From Fuerstiella sp. (GTDB taxonomy: Bacteria > Planctomycetota > Planctomycetia > Planctomycetales > Planctomycetaceae): a DNA stretch of 64,000 bases. The notes beneath the pieces were generated by a model. The model saw only the letters and a list, made by a program, of their open reading frames with translations. It had not been told where the DNA came from and made no database searches. The number at the start of each line of letters is the position of its first letter. The stretch's first letter is position 1. The DNA lies in contig JALHMY010000029.1 in assembly GCA_022843805.1 (NCBI GenBank), forward strand, positions 1 to 64,000, given 5' to 3'. A program made the position numbers and the translations under genes. Of the stretch, positions 6,705 to 21,427 are shown piece after piece.

Positions 6705-7090
6705 ATCAGCGAGGATCGCCGGGGATTTCTGTTTCCATTCTGCATTTGTCGTGACGGAATGAGAGCATTGAGGTCCGCGCAAAGTCCTCCACTGCAGTGG
6801 CAATGGACATCCTGTGCAGTTTAATTCCGTTTCGAACGTACTCCGAGCGCATCGATTTGCGACTCTCAGTTTAACGCCGCGAAATGACCAGAATATCCGT
6901 ACAAACTTTTATACATCCGGAAGAAAGGGCCACAATCTGAAATCAATCCGAGACAATATTTTATGACATGGTATGATCCGTTTCTGACTCTGAGCTCGAA
7001 ACAGTCGAACGTGGGCATCGGGAATCTGGAGCCATGCCAGTCCGAGTGAGATTGTCCGGGACAACATTCCTGATTGATTACGGAGATGTG
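6705..7090. other. Intergenic, no feature recognised
   Basis: I see no coding pattern, hairpin terminator or GG-N10-GC promoter here. It should hold the promoter of the receiver-kinase pair downstream, which is apparently not of the -24/-12 type. Confidence 0.4.
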
Positions 7091-7501
7091 ATGGTGAGTA
7101 AGTTTTCGCTTCGAATTCTGATTGTTGACGATAATCGAGACGGTGCGGACAGCCTTGAAATGATGCTTCGAATTCTGGGAAATGAAACTCGAACGGCCTA
7201 CGATGGTCAGAGTGGAGTGGAAATCGCTGAAGAATTTCGCCCCGACGTGGTTTTGCTGGATATTGGATTGCCCCGGCTCAATGGTTACCAGGCGTGTCGT
7301 TATCTTCGTGAACAGCCCTGGGGTCAGACAATGATTCTGATCGCGGTCACCGGATGGAGCCAGGAGGAAGATCGTCGTCGTTCGGAAGAAGCAGGCTTTG
7401 ACCATCACCTCGTGAAACCCGTCGACTCTGCGGCCCTGATGAAAATGCTGTCAGCAATGGCGGCCACAGCAACTGCGGGATCAGCCACGGCAAATCCCTA
7501 A
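7091..7501 (+). CDS. Single-domain response regulator (CheY-like)
   Basis: The product is one receiver domain of about 120 residues plus a short Ala/Thr-rich tail. Visible landmarks are the acidic pocket in 'ILIVDDNRD', the phospho-acceptor Asp57 in 'VVLLDIGLP', Thr in 'AVTGW' and Lys in 'LVKPVD'. I start at the ATG preceded by GGAG rather than the earlier ATG, which would add 19 residues without similarity. There is no output domain, so it probably acts through protein contacts or as a phosphate shuttle. It lies directly ahead of a hybrid kinase whose own receiver has the same style. Confidence 0.9.
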   Translation: MVSKFSLRILIVDDNRDGADSLEMMLRILGNETRTAYDGQSGVEIAEEFRPDVVLLDIGLPRLNGYQACRYLREQPWGQTMILIAVTGWSQEEDRRRSEEAGFDHHLVKPVDSAALMKMLSAMAATATAGSATANP

Positions 7502-7580: not shown

Positions 7581-10547
7581 GTGGAGATGTTTCGAATAAT
7601 GAAATTATCTCATTGGCCCCGGTCACCCGGAACGACTGGCAGTTTTGGCGTCATACTGTTTGTGCTTGTGCTCAACGGAATTGTCGTTCACAGAAACAGT
7701 ATTGCCCTGCACCGTGCATATAGTCAGGTGATTGATACTCACGAGACCATCAGTCTGACAGAGCATATCTTTTTTCAGCAGCTGAATGCCGAAACAGGCG
7801 TGCGAGGATATGCATTAACTGGTAAGGACGCGTACCTTGAACCCTTCAGCGAAGCGAGTAAGTCGTTAGCAACAGAATTCTCACTTCTTCGCGTCAGGGT
7901 GGCCGATACGCCTGATCAGACAGCGAAAATCGAGTCTCTTGAATCTCTTGTTTTCGCCAGGCTTGAGCATCTGAAGTCTGTAATATCTGCTCGATCCGAG
8001 TCCGGAGCAGAAGGGGCGTCTAACGTCCTTCTGGCTGGTGTCAGCGGACAGCAGCCTGGACAGACCAGCAACCTGTTCAGGCAGCTCAAGGAAGACGAGG
8101 AGACTCGACTCAGTGTTCATACGGAATTCGCGGCCCAGCAGCTCTACATTATTCTGGCCGCGAATCTTTGTATGGTGTGCGCCGGCCTGCTGATCAGCGG
8201 CGTTGCGTGGCGATCGATCAATAGTCATGTTCGTCATTCCCGTATCGCAGAAGCCAATGCTCATGCGGAACGGGAAAACCTCATGGTCACGCTGGTCAGT
8301 ATTGGGGACGCGGTCATCGTGACCGATTCCCATGGTCGCGTGCAAATGGCCAACCCGGTCGCCGAACAGCTGCTTGGCTTCCCGGAAGATGTAATCGGCA
8401 GGAAGCTTGAGGAGGTTTTTTCCGTCATCCATGAATCCAGCCATGATCCTGTACCGAATCCCGTAGACGAGGTACTGCGTCTGGGCAGAGCTTCCGTCTC
8501 ATCGACTCTGACCCTTCTGGTGCGACAGGATGGAGTGAAACTTCCCATTGAAGAGAGTGCGTCTCCAATTCGCGACAAGTCCGGGCGAGTTGTTGGTGTC
8601 ATTCTGGTATTTCGAGATTGCTCACAGAGGCGAGATTTTGAAAAGCAGTTACAGGCCCGGGAACAGCACTTTCGCCGAATGCTTGAGACCCCGCTGATCG
8701 GTATTGCAGTCTGCACGCCCGATGGAAAGAGACTGCTGGAAGCAAACGATGCGTTCCTCAGTCTGATTGGTCATACTCGCGGCTCGCTTGACGGAAGCGA
8801 CCTTAACTGGGAGGGAGCCAGTTCGCTTCAGGGCCCACTGGACGAAGCCGCACAGAGAGAGCTGCGCGAGACAGGAATCTGTCGCCCCTCCGAAAAAGCC
8901 TGCCGACGCAGCGATGGACGAATCGTCCCCGTACTGATTTCCGCAAACAGACTATCCAGTGAAGAAGACCGAATTATCGTTTTTGTGATGGATCTGTCTG
9001 AAAGTAAACAGTCAGAAGCATCACTTAAGGAAAGCGAGAATCGATTTCTGATTCTGTCGGAAAGTATGCCTCAGATTGTCTGGCTTGCCGACATCCACGG
9101 CGACTTCAGTTATGTCAACCACACCCTGGTCTCATACTCCGGACGTTCGGCCATTGAACTTAAGGATAGTGGATGGGCCGAATTAATTCATCCCGATGAT
9201 CGGGCAGCGTATATGGAAGCATGGTCCGAGTCTGTTTCCAGTGCTCTGCCGTTTGAGGCGGAAAGCCGACTGGAAGACAGTGCGGGCAATTATCGATGGC
9301 ATCTGACCCGCGCACTGCCAATGTATAATGATCTCCGACAGATTACTCAGTGGGTTGGAACCACGACCGACATGCATGATCAGAAGGTGATTGAGGCAAT
9401 TCTGAAGGAAGAACATCTTCGTAAGGACCAGTTTCTGGCGATGCTTGCTCACGAACTTCGCAATCCTCTGGCTCCATTGGCAAATGTCGTGGAAGTGCTG
9501 TCAGCTGCTCCTCACGATGCCGGGCTCCTGGCAGACCTGCTTCCGGTTATGAAACGCAAGATCAGATTGCTGACTCGCCTGATTAATGATCTGCTTGATG
9601 TCGCTCGTCTGACGCAGGGTTGCATCGCTCTCAATCGACGGCCGTCGCTTGTCAGCACGATTGTTTCGGAGGCAGTGGAAGCAGCACAGCCGCTGATTTC
9701 AGAGTTTCAGCATCAGCTCACAGTAACAATGCCTTCACACGATATCCGGATCAGCGCAGATTCAGGGCGAATTGTGCAGGCTCTCACCAACGTCCTGCAG
9801 AACGCAGCGAAATACACTGGCCCCAAAGGAAAGATTGACCTGACGGTTGCTCAGAGCGACTGCGAAGTAACATTCTCTGTTCGGGACAACGGACAGGGAA
9901 TCTCTCCAGCAATGCTGAATCGAATCTTTGATTTGTTCATTCATGCAGAACCCAATCTGGAACGAGTCCCGGGAGGTTTGGGTATTGGTCTGTCGATGGT
10001 TCGCACGGTTATCGAACTGCATGGAGGCACGGTATCGGCAAAAAGTAAAGGTTTGGGTCATGGAAGTGAGTTCGTGATTTCGTTACCGCTCATGGATTCT
10101 GACGAAAGGACAGAAGTAGCCGCAAAGCCACGAGAAACCACGGCAGCGGCAACGGAGTCTCTGCCGGCAATGCGAATTCTTGTGGTCGACGACGTAAAAG
10201 CTTCCGCCAAAACTCTTGCAATGATGCTGAAGGTTCTCGGACAGGATGCGGAGATGACTTTCGACGGTGCATCGGCCATTGAGCGACTGACCGAAAAGAC
10301 GTTTGACGTCGTTTTTCTGGACATCGCCATGCCCGGTATGGACGGCCTTGAAGTTGCCCGACATCTTCGCGCAGTGCCATCACTCAGTTCGCTCACAATC
10401 GTTGCGCTCACCGGTTTTGGACAGGAGGACGATCGTCATCGCAGCCTGGTTGCGGGAATTGATGAACACCTGCTGAAGCCTACCAGCATCAATCTGCTTC
10501 AGGAAGTCCTTCAGCGAGCAAGCCAAAAGCTGGCGGGCTCTCCCTGA
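7581..10547 (+). CDS. Hybrid sensor histidine kinase (CHASE3-PAS-PAS-PAS-HisKA-HATPase-REC)
   Basis: A 988-residue membrane kinase. Two transmembrane helices (about 17-35 and 188-207) flank a periplasmic CHASE3-type domain with 'ETGVRGYALTGKDAYLEPF'. Three PAS domains follow (about 232-345, 360-475, 485-605); the third has the PAC-like 'GTTTDMHDQK'. The HisKA box MLAHELRNPLAPL carries the phospho-acceptor His624. The ATPase has the N box (NVLQNAAKYTG), G1 (DNGQGIS) and G2 (GLGIGLSMV). The C-terminal receiver has Asp914 in FLDIAMPGM. Start choice among GTG 7581, ATG 7587 and ATG 7599 is uncertain. All catalytic residues are present, so it should autophosphorylate. It probably works with the preceding lone receiver and perhaps with the distant Hpt protein. 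Confidence 0.93.
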   Translation: MEMFRIMKLSHWPRSPGTTGSFGVILFVLVLNGIVVHRNSIALHRAYSQVIDTHETISLTEHIFFQQLNAETGVRGYALTGKDAYLEPFSEASKSLATEFSLLRVRVADTPDQTAKIESLESLVFARLEHLKSVISARSESGAEGASNVLLAGVSGQQPGQTSNLFRQLKEDEETRLSVHTEFAAQQLYIILAANLCMVCAGLLISGVAWRSINSHVRHSRIAEANAHAERENLMVTLVSIGDAVIVTDSHGRVQMANPVAEQLLGFPEDVIGRKLEEVFSVIHESSHDPVPNPVDEVLRLGRASVSSTLTLLVRQDGVKLPIEESASPIRDKSGRVVGVILVFRDCSQRRDFEKQLQAREQHFRRMLETPLIGIAVCTPDGKRLLEANDAFLSLIGHTRGSLDGSDLNWEGASSLQGPLDEAAQRELRETGICRPSEKACRRSDGRIVPVLISANRLSSEEDRIIVFVMDLSESKQSEASLKESENRFLILSESMPQIVWLADIHGDFSYVNHTLVSYSGRSAIELKDSGWAELIHPDDRAAYMEAWSESVSSALPFEAESRLEDSAGNYRWHLTRALPMYNDLRQITQWVGTTTDMHDQKVIEAILKEEHLRKDQFLAMLAHELRNPLAPLANVVEVLSAAPHDAGLLADLLPVMKRKIRLLTRLINDLLDVARLTQGCIALNRRPSLVSTIVSEAVEAAQPLISEFQHQLTVTMPSHDIRISADSGRIVQALTNVLQNAAKYTGPKGKIDLTVAQSDCEVTFSVRDNGQGISPAMLNRIFDLFIHAEPNLERVPGGLGIGLSMVRTVIELHGGTVSAKSKGLGHGSEFVISLPLMDSDERTEVAAKPRETTAAATESLPAMRILVVDDVKASAKTLAMMLKVLGQDAEMTFDGASAIERLTEKTFDVVFLDIAMPGMDGLEVARHLRAVPSLSSLTIVALTGFGQEDDRHRSLVAGIDEHLLKPTSINLLQEVLQRASQKLAGSP

Positions 10548-13027: not shown

Positions 13028-13043
13028 TGGCACGAAAAATGCT
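13028..13043 (+). promoter_or_regulatory. Sigma-54 promoter candidate for the degenerate kinase gene
   Basis: TGGCACGAAAAATGCT matches the consensus TGGCACG-N4-TTGCT at all but one key base. It closely resembles the csbD site (TGGCGCGAAAAATGCC). Transcription would start near 13055, giving a leader of about 40 bases to the small upstream frame and 200 bases to the kinase. Confidence 0.65.
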
Positions 13044-13096: not shown

Positions 13097-13261
13097 ATGG
13101 TTCCACTCCACGTCAGCAGCGAATCCATTGATAACTCATCACGTCAGCGGAATGCCTCAACGATGCACGATTTATCTGACTATGCAAACGATGGCGCGGA
13201 CTACCGTGTTTATCAGAGACTCTTCTCCCGAAACGACGGGCTGATTATCGGAGAATTCTGA
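13097..13261 (+). CDS. Possible small leader ORF coupled to the kinase gene (54 aa)
   Basis: The frame opens at ATG, encodes a polar, Ser/Asp/Asn-rich peptide without a known domain, and its TGA shares one base with the kinase ATG (TGATG). The position, wholly inside the predicted transcript and ending exactly at the kinase start, suggests a coupled leader peptide. Protein evidence is absent, and the frame could be fortuitous. Confidence 0.35.
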   Translation: MVPLHVSSESIDNSSRQRNASTMHDLSDYANDGADYRVYQRLFSRNDGLIIGEF

Positions 13262-15189
13262 TGGCCTCCCCATTTGTCCCTGCTCGGGCAAGACTGATGG
13301 ACATGGCGGCCACGTTCAGTGAATTAAAAAAATGGATCCATGCCAGTTCGGGTGTTGCTCCAGGCGTCCGACGATGGCATCGTTCTCTGGTGATCCTTGT
13401 ATTCATTGGAGCAGTGGTGTGTGTCATTCCGCGAACGCCTCTTGCTGGTCCGGTTGGTGGCGTGGTCGGATTCTCCACGGTCCTGGCTGGCTGCTGGGCT
13501 GCCGGACCGTTTGTGGGGCTCATTACCCCGCTCTATATTGCCACGCTGTCGCGTTTGGTTAGCAATCCGCCAAAGCCTCTGGTACCGGATTCGCAGGAGT
13601 TAACGGGACTCTTTGTCATGACGGTGCTTACCCTTCTCATGGGAATAACGGGAGAAAACAGGCGTCGCCTGAAAACGGTGACCCGTCGTTCCAGCGCTCG
13701 CTTACTTCAGCAGTCGCATGCTCTGAGTCTTGCCAGAATCCTTTTTCGAGATCTGGATGGCAGTATTACAACGTGGACCCAGGGTGCTGAGGATCTTTTT
13801 GGATGGACCCAGAGCGAAGCCACGGGACGACGCATTCAGGATTTGCTGAAAACCGAATATCCGAGACCACTGGAAGAAATTCATCAGGAACTTTTGCTGC
13901 ACAGACAGTGGCAGGGTGAAGTCAGGCAACACTGCAAGGATGGCAGGGTCCGCATCATTGCCACTCACTGGATTCTTTACAGTGGCGATGACGCGGTACA
14001 GGGCGGCGTTGCTGAAGTGCACAACGACATCACTCTTTTGCGTGAGGCCGAAGCCACACTGAGGGAATCAGAACATCGCAAGGACCTGTTCGTAGCGACT
14101 CTGGCATATGAGCTCCGAAACCCGCTTGCTCCCCTTCGCAGCGGGCTCGACTGTCTGCAGCTGCTGCGAGGGGAGAGGCCGGAGGACGCTCGTGTTTTTG
14201 AAATTATGAATCGTCAGCTTCAGCATCTGGTGAGACTGATTGATGATCTGCTGGACGTGAGTCGAATCAACACGGGCAAAGTTGAGCTGCGTCCTGAACG
14301 TGTCAGCCTGAACGAGATTATCTCTGACGCCATCAGCTCCTGTCGTGCGCAGATCGATGCTGCCGGACATGAACTCCGACTGTCCATGCCGAACGAGACG
14401 ATCTGTCTTAATGCAGATCCAGGGCGGCTGACACAGGTGTTCACCAATCTGCTGCACAACGCAGCGAAATTTACTGGAGCAAAAGGGCGTATTGGCCTGA
14501 CTGTCGTAAGCTCCTGGAACGAAATCCTCATACGGGTTGAAGATTCCGGCATAGGAATTTCCAAACAGATGCTTCCTCGCGTATTTGATATGTTTGCACA
14601 GGTTCAGGACGTAAGAACCCGAGGTCAGTTCGGGCTCGGCCTGGGTTTGAATATTGTAAAATCTCTGGTGGAAATGCATGGTGGTTCCGTTGAAGTGGAT
14701 AGTGACGGACCAGGACAGGGCGCTCGATTCTCAGTCCGATTGCCGCGGACAAGCGATGATTTGCCGGTCGCTGCCATGTCCTTACCTTCCACGCCTGCGG
14801 CCAACCATCTCGAATCCCGGCGAGTTCTTGTGATCGATGACAACCAGGATGCGGCCTGCACCCTTGCGATGTCGTTAAACATTTTTGGCTGTGTTTGTCG
14901 AACGGCCTTTGATGGTGTATCAGGACTGCAGGTCGCCCGCGAATTCAATCCTCACGTCTTTGTCCTGGATCTCGGAATGCCTGGTATGTCGGGGCTGGAT
15001 CTGGCTCGTCAGCTGAGAGCTGCCCCCCAATTTGCGTCCGCCATTCTGATTGCTGTGACAGGCTGGGATAAGGAAGAAGACGTGCAGGAGTCCCGCGTTG
15101 CAGGATTCAATTACCATTTTGCCAAACCAGTTGATGTCAAAGCCCTCCACCGGCTGATTGAGTGCAACGACACGAACCAGACTTCATAA
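13261..15189 (+). CDS. Hybrid histidine kinase-like protein with Tyr replacing the phospho-acceptor His
   Basis: The 642-residue protein has an N-terminal membrane region of about three or four helices (40-135; 'LVILVFIGAVVCVIP', 'GVVGFSTVLAGCWAAGPFVGLI'), a PAS domain (about 150-270; 'DLDGSITTWTQGAEDLFGW'), a HisKA-like dimerisation helix, an ATPase and a C-terminal receiver. The ATPase looks intact: N box NLLHNAAKFTG, G1 DSGIGIS, G2 GLGLGLNIV. The receiver keeps Asp in FVLDLGMPGM and Lys in FAKPVD. But the H box reads TLAYELRNPLAPL: codon 283 (14107-14109) is TAT (Tyr) where His is invariant. Canonical autophosphorylation is therefore not expected. It may regulate by ATP binding, by heterodimerising with the other kinase, or through its receiver. 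A sigma-54 type promoter precedes it. Confidence 0.88.
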   Translation: MASPFVPARARLMDMAATFSELKKWIHASSGVAPGVRRWHRSLVILVFIGAVVCVIPRTPLAGPVGGVVGFSTVLAGCWAAGPFVGLITPLYIATLSRLVSNPPKPLVPDSQELTGLFVMTVLTLLMGITGENRRRLKTVTRRSSARLLQQSHALSLARILFRDLDGSITTWTQGAEDLFGWTQSEATGRRIQDLLKTEYPRPLEEIHQELLLHRQWQGEVRQHCKDGRVRIIATHWILYSGDDAVQGGVAEVHNDITLLREAEATLRESEHRKDLFVATLAYELRNPLAPLRSGLDCLQLLRGERPEDARVFEIMNRQLQHLVRLIDDLLDVSRINTGKVELRPERVSLNEIISDAISSCRAQIDAAGHELRLSMPNETICLNADPGRLTQVFTNLLHNAAKFTGAKGRIGLTVVSSWNEILIRVEDSGIGISKQMLPRVFDMFAQVQDVRTRGQFGLGLGLNIVKSLVEMHGGSVEVDSDGPGQGARFSVRLPRTSDDLPVAAMSLPSTPAANHLESRRVLVIDDNQDAACTLAMSLNIFGCVCRTAFDGVSGLQVAREFNPHVFVLDLGMPGMSGLDLARQLRAAPQFASAILIAVTGWDKEEDVQESRVAGFNYHFAKPVDVKALHRLIECNDTNQTS

Positions 15190-19550: not shown

Positions 19551-19918
19551 GAAAACCCTTCTCAGTGCCCCGCGTAAAACTTTTCGTCGGTTCGCTTTCG
19601 ATGCACTGGGGCGAGCAGACCTCGAATTTAGAACAGATATGTTTCGGGCTGATCGATTGACAATCTGTCGACGACGGAAAGAGCGATGATCAAAAGATTC
19701 AAACAGCCATTCATCACTGTTTCATCGAAATGATGTGTCCCGCAGTTGTTACCATCGCTTTTTACCGAAAAGTCCGGCTGTCCGACGAGAATGCTGGCTG
19801 ACGGATTGGAACGAGACGGCAACGTTGGCTACCCTGATGGATGAAGGGCAGGGATGACGGATCACGATTCCCCCTTTACGATTCCCTTTTTACAGTATCT
19901 GCGTGGCAGGTGAAAAAA
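19551..19918. other. Divergent intergenic region before the sigma-54 activator
   Basis: No gene seen. It contains the upstream DNA of the DUF1328 promoter, where enhancer binding would be expected, and the promoter of the activator gene, for which I see no -24/-12 motif. A partial dyad TTGACAATCTGTCGA lies near 19658. Confidence 0.35.
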
Positions 19919-21427
19919 ATGGCTTCAGCACTTGTCGTGGATGACGACCGCAGCCTGCGGTACATGGTACAGGTTTCCCTTGAGTCGATTGGCATAGAGG
20001 TAGTAACGGCATCGACTGCTGAAGAGGGAGTACAGCTTCTGGCACAGAAATCACCGGATGTGATTCTGCTTGACATCATGCTGCCCGGGAGGTCCGGACT
20101 GGAGGTCCTCAAAGATATTCAGGCAATCGATCGCCGACTGCCCGTGATCTTTGTTACGGCTGACAATGCCAGCAGTACTGCCATCGAAGCGATGCAGCTG
20201 GGGGCCTATGATTATGTCTGCAAGCCACTTGATCTGCCGCAGCTGAATCGCCTTGTTCAAACGGCAATCAATTCGCGGCAGCTAATGAATATGCCGGTGG
20301 CCCTGGCAGCCGATCTGGACGAAAACTCATCAGGGAAGTCGTTCGTCGGACACAGCCAGGAAATGCTGGATGTTTTTAAAGCAATTGCGAGGGTCGCCGC
20401 GCAGGATGTTCCGGTCCTGATTCGAGGAGAAAGCGGAACCGGAAAGGAATTGGTTGCACAGGCCCTTTATCAGCACAGCCACCGACGCGATCAGCCATTT
20501 ATGGCCATTAACTGCGCGGCACTGCCGGATACTTTGCTTGAAAGCGAACTTTTCGGACACGAAAAAGGTGCATTCACAGGAGCAGATCGACGCCGAATCG
20601 GAAAATTCGAACAATGTCATGGGGGAACCATTTTCCTCGATGAGGTTGGTGATATGGCGCTCGTCGTACAGGGAAAAGTGCTGCGATTGTTGCAGGATCA
20701 GCGATTTGAGCGAGTTGGAGGAAACGAAACGATTTGCACAAATGTCAGGGTGATTACCGCCACTAACAGGCCGCTCGAACAAATGGTTGAAGAAAAGACG
20801 TTCCGCGCTGACCTCCTTTATCGACTCAACGGAATGACTATCTCTCTTCCTCCGCTTCGTGAACGACGCGACGATATTCCACTCCTGCTTCGATACTTCC
20901 TGGCACAGGCTCAACGCTCACTGAATAAGTTTCACATCGAAGGATTGTCGCCTGAATGCCTGGACATCCTGACCAGTTATCGATGGCCGGGAAATGTTCG
21001 GGAAATGCAGAGCGTGGTGCAACAAGCAGTTCTGAATGCCAGCGGCCCGATCATCATTCCTGACTTCCTTCCGCGGGAAATCACTGAAGGACGAGAAAGT
21101 CGAAATGAAATTCGCACCAACCCCGCTCCGGTTGCCATCGCACGTCAGGAGCCGGAATCGGGCATTGAAAGTGAGCGAGCCCGCATTGGTGACCTCGGAC
21201 AGTTTATCGAGCAGCGACTCATGGCTAACTCGAATAATCTGGCCGCAGAAGTAATCGAACGAGTTGAACGTTATCTGTTCGCTCGAGTTCTGGATCTGAC
21301 AAATGGGAACCAGAGTCAGGCGGCCGACATCCTTGGAGTCACACGAGGCAAGATTCGTGATCGAATCGCCACTTTTAATATCTCAATGGAACGAAAAGTG
21401 CGTGTTGACAAAGGTGCCGACGCCTGA
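19919..21427 (+). CDS. NtrC-family sigma-54-dependent response regulator
   Basis: The 502-residue protein starts at the ATG of MASALVVDDD, after a GGCAGGTG site. Its receiver (1-120) has Asp52 in LLDIMLPG, Thr in FVTADNA and Lys in VCKPLD. The AAA+ domain (about 150-375) has Walker A GESGTGKE, the sigma-54-contacting loop GAFTGA, Walker B IFLDEVGD and arginine-rich sensor II 'YRWPGNVREM'. A Fis-type helix-turn-helix is at the end ('NGNQSQAADILGVTRGKIRD'). All parts needed for ATP-driven sigma-54 activation are present. No cognate kinase is adjacent; the next gene is an Hpt protein. It is the obvious local candidate to drive the many -24/-12 promoters nearby. Confidence 0.95.
   Translation: MASALVVDDDRSLRYMVQVSLESIGIEVVTASTAEEGVQLLAQKSPDVILLDIMLPGRSGLEVLKDIQAIDRRLPVIFVTADNASSTAIEAMQLGAYDYVCKPLDLPQLNRLVQTAINSRQLMNMPVALAADLDENSSGKSFVGHSQEMLDVFKAIARVAAQDVPVLIRGESGTGKELVAQALYQHSHRRDQPFMAINCAALPDTLLESELFGHEKGAFTGADRRRIGKFEQCHGGTIFLDEVGDMALVVQGKVLRLLQDQRFERVGGNETICTNVRVITATNRPLEQMVEEKTFRADLLYRLNGMTISLPPLRERRDDIPLLLRYFLAQAQRSLNKFHIEGLSPECLDILTSYRWPGNVREMQSVVQQAVLNASGPIIIPDFLPREITEGRESRNEIRTNPAPVAIARQEPESGIESERARIGDLGQFIEQRLMANSNNLAAEVIERVERYLFARVLDLTNGNQSQAADILGVTRGKIRDRIATFNISMERKVRVDKGADA

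Follow-up and report, generated by a model that had tools for sequence, protein, structure and literature searches.

In histidine kinases of the HisKA type, the acceptor His takes phosphate from ATP, and the RetS/LadS-type hybrid kinases of Pseudomonas are models for a hybrid kinase that acts on another kinase. In Caulobacter, DivL carries Tyr550 in place of the acceptor His; it shows neither kinase nor phosphatase activity and works through its binding to DivK~P (PMC4211667). This protein has PAS domains and, at its C-terminus, an HK module but no receiver, its ATP binding is weak, and its Tyr is retained in nearly all homologues from alpha-proteobacteria (PMC4211667). A second Caulobacter protein, the hybrid kinase CCNA_03265 (CC3162), which belongs to a motility/holdfast pathway, is devoid of the conserved His and retains the receiver Asp (PMC11481889). 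The likeness of RetS and LadS (PMC4866733) to the protein described below should be taken as an analogy only.

We analyzed a gene for a hybrid histidine kinase of 642 aa (13261–15189) located in a 64-kb window, by which we mean the whole stretch of DNA examined. Its product contains, in this order, a hydrophobic membrane region of about residues 43–135 (13387–13665), recognized by eye in the translation and without a Pfam match, a PAS domain (13738–14034; Pfam PAS, PAS_3 and PAS_9), a HisKA (DHp) domain (14080–14277; PF00512, 47.5 bits), a HATPase_c domain (14416–14751; PF02518, 96.9 bits), and a C-terminal receiver (residues 522–633, 14824–15159; PF00072 Response_reg, 66.9 bits), all of them on the forward strand. 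The last three domains scored above the Pfam cut-offs, the domain order is that of the HisKA hybrid histidine kinase structural family, and the fold is clear from the sequence matches to Pfam and the PDB. Codon 283 (14107–14109, forward strand), at the position of the phospho-acceptor His, is TAT (Tyr), and the H box is KDLFVATLAYELRNPLAPLRS. The reading frame, its coordinates, and this codon had been correctly described in an earlier note, which also pointed out that the sister kinase at 7581 has a His codon (CAC) in the same place and that the ATP-binding motifs and the receiver Asp are retained. These observations were confirmed: the N, G1, F, and G2 motifs are intact and keep their invariant columns, and N396, N400, D428, the G2 glycines, D526, D527, D570, T600, and K622 are all present, the phospho-acceptor of the receiver being Asp570 (14968–14970, forward strand). 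Also retained are E284 and N287, close to the lost His. Hence, the protein has the boxes and the receiver Asp of an active enzyme and fails to show the acceptor His in the H box.

The Tyr283 kinase resembles DivL in the presence of Tyr at the acceptor position and in the combination of PAS plus an HK core, and this core matches the DivL structure 4q20 (E = 3.5e-27). In contrast with DivL, its ATP motifs are intact, and it has both a membrane region and, at the C-terminus, a receiver. Furthermore, the Tyr of DivL is conserved in its orthologues, whereas that of the query occurs in a single genome among the data available. Given that the Tyr is not conserved among orthologues and that a receiver is present, we conclude that the Tyr283 kinase is not a DivL. 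With CCNA_03265, which is a different protein, it shares the absence of the conserved His and the retention of the receiver Asp.

Orthologues were searched for with the N-terminal 264 residues, since paralogy among the kinase cores is too extensive for these to reveal orthology. Two full-length orthologues were found in other genera, at the loci L060 (51% identity) and L061 (52% identity); both have the same domain order as the query, which is shared by the more distant kinase at L064. The H box of L060 and L061 reads KD[LI]FVATLAHELRNPLAPLRS, so that both carry His, encoded by CAT in L060 and by CAC in L061 (CAC is also the codon in L063). In the core tree, L060 pairs with L061, the query is adjacent to this pair, and the acceptor column is His in every homologue included. 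No orthologue was present in the three same-genus genomes searched, which indicates that the unit formed by this kinase and its upstream DUF1559 gene (see below) is patchily distributed, and the class-wide search with the N-terminal region gave no further full orthologue. The earlier note had suggested an alignment of orthologues to find out whether the Tyr is conserved; both full-length orthologues have His and no relative has Tyr, and therefore Tyr283 is private to this genome in the data available.

The motif LAYELRNPL occurred only once in 398 genomes of the class, in the Tyr283 kinase itself. An H-box pattern that accepts any codon not starting with C at the His position, and thus takes in Tyr and leaves out the Arg, Pro, Leu, and Gln codons, gave five further matches in 396 genomes of the class; four were readable and none of these was a kinase, and the fifth (L074) showed no readable frame with the motif. 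The His form of the same motif was found about 229 times in 99 genomes (summed over the search rows). Because the Tyr283 kinase is the only such kinase in 396 genomes, compared with this abundance of the His form, the loss of the His at this motif is a rare change and not background. Among the homologues with an aligned H box (E < 1e-60), His was present in all others except for one Tyr kinase that had been sought by its motif, and in the kinase loci first taken from the same genome and its relatives this column was 100% His.

A survey of the Tyr motif in about 85,000 species yielded six matches, three of which were not kinases. The three kinases come from Massilia sp. Bi118 (L055), a Kofleriaceae MAG (L057), and Caballeronia (L058); the frame of the last one appears broken, and the closest relative of the Massilia kinase, the one close relative available, carries His. 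These Tyr kinases look like scattered single cases, and Tyr codons are one C-to-T transition away from a His codon. In Massilia sp. Bi118 (L055:1273–4348), the Tyr-type kinase (511 aa) and a His-type kinase (533 aa) overlap in a tandem arrangement, and thus form a pair well suited to tests of pseudokinases that act in trans. In the Tyr hybrid kinase of the Kofleriaceae MAG (L057:1172–2281), further conserved residues are missing besides the His, and for this reason it is the better candidate when an old pseudokinase is sought.

DUF1559 proteins are pseudopilin-like surface proteins. In distinct genera, a complete DUF1559 gene immediately precedes the gene for a membrane/PAS hybrid kinase (L060:7855–10836 and L064:758–3778), with gaps between the two genes of 27 nt in L060 and 42 nt in L064. 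Both DUF1559 proteins include an N-terminal methylation motif and SBP_bac_10, and at 80% identity to each other they are much better conserved than the corresponding kinases, which are 44% identical. In the window, the place of this gene is taken by an ORF of 54 codons (13097–13261, forward strand), whose stop codon overlaps the start of the kinase gene (TGATG). Its translation, SESIDNSSRQRNASTMHDLSDYANDGADYRVYQRLFSRNDGLIIGEF followed by the stop, aligned through its homologous part (13118–13258) with the C-terminus of the DUF1559 protein of L060 (68% identity over 47 aa, E = 3e-15) and with that of L064 (57% identity), and the alignment score was 162, compared with at most 46 in 300 shuffles. 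The intact copies of L060 and L064 are themselves 72% identical over the same 47-residue stretch, and for this reason the remnant appears to be little drifted. Upstream of the Tyr283 kinase, the remainder of the DUF1559 gene is missing together with its entire Pfam domain, and only the last ~47 codons of the complete same-strand gene that characterizes the unit are left. The genome contains 53 DUF1559 matches, a number suggestive of a planctomycete, and the best-scoring copies elsewhere in it are only 44–47% identical to the L064 copy. Most likely, the partner gene was deleted in this lineage, and such a deletion would represent separate evidence of a damaged unit. The view that this locus does not reflect general decay, put forward in the earlier note, therefore holds for the kinase frame, which is intact, but not for the two-gene unit, which is broken. 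At L061:6465–6611, a DUF1559-like C-terminal motif (RFVS) was observed just upstream of the kinase; this putative tail, truncated by the end of the contig and interrupted by an in-frame stop, may represent damage or a shorter protein.

A sigma-54-type −24/−12-like site, TGGCACGAAAAATGCT (13028–13043, forward strand), is located 54 nt upstream of the ATG of the remnant and 218 nt upstream of that of the kinase. The window contains two exact matches to TGGCAC-N6-TGCW, this site being one of them, and 20 when one mismatch is tolerated, compared with 9.3 expected by chance. In contrast, no sigma-54-like site was found upstream at L060 or L064, the two related loci in which the DUF1559 gene is complete and the kinase has its His. 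We infer that the putative site may have been brought next to the kinase by the DUF1559 deletion. The proposal that this gene is a feedback element of a sigma-54 regulon was thus sustained only with regard to the good site upstream; its absence at the two related loci left regulon membership and the feedback role without support. The start codon of the remnant, the stop-start overlap, and the upstream site suggest that expression of the Tyr283 kinase may be maintained. Elsewhere in the window, a sigma-54 activator of the response-regulator type is encoded at 19841–21427, and a single-domain receiver (7034–7501) adjoins the CHASE3/PAS hybrid kinase at 7581–10547. Since this receiver and that of the Tyr283 kinase are 48% identical, cross-talk is conceivable.

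To evaluate the constraint on the rest of the protein, the query was compared with 35 homologues, and it differed from them at only one of the 44 invariant columns, H283. In a leave-one-out comparison of the columns that are at least 97% conserved, the query showed a single deviation (H283) and the Kofleriaceae Tyr kinase showed nine; when the columns at least 90% conserved were considered, the query had eight deviations, a rather high number that is nevertheless near the six of its orthologue L060. The DHp+CA branch of the query, calculated with outgroups, was 0.49, versus 0.38 and 0.41 for the orthologues, and was not significantly faster, given that the ranges of the differences in 60 bootstrap replicates span zero. 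With one of 44 invariant columns lost and no significantly faster branch, either the change is recent or the protein is still constrained for another reason, both being compatible with the sequence.

Taken together, we consider it moderately probable that the Tyr283 kinase belongs to a DUF1559-hybrid-kinase unit that was disabled recently. For the most part, the locus gives the impression of signalling machinery that has lately been broken in a single lineage, and not of a conserved new kind of pseudokinase. The presence of His in both orthologues, the reduction of the DUF1559 partner to its tail, and the isolated nature of the Tyr variants elsewhere are in favor of decay. On the other hand, the frame of 642 codons is open and the other invariant residues are kept, as would also be expected under selection for a function independent of kinase activity; the remnant ORF with its start codon and overlapping stop-start and the sigma-54-like site upstream also argue against decay. 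According to the disabled-unit reading, the ancestral unit would have consisted of the gene for a DUF1559 protein and, behind it, that for a hybrid histidine kinase of the membrane/PAS type; a deletion in this lineage would have left no more than the C-terminal ~47 codons of the former, and the acceptor His would have been replaced by Tyr, for which one C-to-T transition is the simplest route. The Tyr283 protein is predicted to be still made, to dimerize, and to bind ATP. However, from the established chemistry of HisKA kinases, the missing His283 should prevent the normal uptake of phosphate from ATP, and the protein would be unable to start a normal His-to-Asp relay. In HisKA kinases, the Glu at H+1 and the Asn at H+4 serve the phosphatase reaction, and as E284 and N287 remain, phosphatase activity on a partner is possible. 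At most, the protein would have a passive role: by means of the E284/N287 motif, which is intact, it could bind a partner receiver or remove its phosphate or, alternatively, its own receiver could take phosphate from another donor. The loss of kinase activity, any phosphatase or binding activity that is left, and the recency of these events are all deduced from the comparisons above.

An unlikely alternative, which still deserves consideration, is that of a kept pseudokinase similar to DivL or RetS, in which the loss of the His would be adaptive and the core would have acquired a new task, either the binding of a phosphorylated response regulator or the formation of heterodimers with another hybrid kinase. 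The retention of all other invariant catalytic and receiver residues, the lack of a significant rate increase in DHp+CA, the good promoter-like site, and the match to 4q20 are compatible with this idea, and DivL itself is a precedent of a protein with Tyr550 instead of His that is functional without kinase activity (PMC4211667). The unrelated Massilia Tyr kinase, in tandem with a His kinase, points in the same direction; nevertheless, its Tyr also looks like a singleton. Against this alternative, neither orthologue has the Tyr, unlike what is observed for DivL (PMC4211667), and the DUF1559 partner gene has been lost. The kept pseudokinase proposed in the earlier note is therefore not borne out by the full-length orthologues with His, by the lack of Tyr in every relative, or by the partner deletion; the heterodimer, ATP-trap, and phosphate-sink roles that it mentioned are conceivable.

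It is quite unlikely that codon 283 is really CAT (His) and that the Tyr arises from a base-call or assembly error. A single C-to-T difference, common to no relative in a gene that is otherwise normal, would be expected from such an error, but no other part of the gene looks erroneous, and the partner gene underwent a deletion of its own, which shows an altered locus in this lineage. We regard as improbable a sequence of events in which the kinase came under the control of a sigma-54 promoter through the DUF1559 deletion and was afterwards turned by the His-to-Tyr change into a receiver-bearing, ATP-binding pseudokinase modulating another hybrid kinase, e.g., that at 7581; if true, this would be an independent and very young origin of a DivL-like regulator. 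Slightly less credit can be given to a kinase-negative, phosphatase-positive regulator that drains phosphate from a partner response regulator and locks the pathway off. The preserved H+1 Glu (E284) and H+4 Asn (N287) speak for it, but DivL has no phosphatase activity (PMC4211667), and this scenario overlaps the disabled-unit reading as a leftover activity; our search for literature on phosphatase-positive acceptor-His mutants gave no useful paper in the collection searched. Finally, it is very improbable that the protein is a genuine tyrosine kinase or that another His (H272 or H321) is phosphorylated: Tyr can in principle take phosphate and both His residues are nearby, but no autokinase activity was seen for DivL, which had originally been taken for a tyrosine kinase (PMC4211667). 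As replacement acceptors, H272 was rejected for not being conserved in the orthologues, and H321 because it is also found in kinases with a normal His.

Acceptor-less histidine kinases are easily assumed to be repurposed, and the disabled-unit reading of the Tyr283 kinase illustrates that the orthologues and the neighboring gene can help to distinguish an allele that is private and probably degenerate from a pseudokinase that is conserved. Regarding the unit from which this kinase would derive, it is possible that the DUF1559 protein and the hybrid kinase form a sensor-partner pair, which could offer a handle on the function of the expanded and unexplained DUF1559 family.
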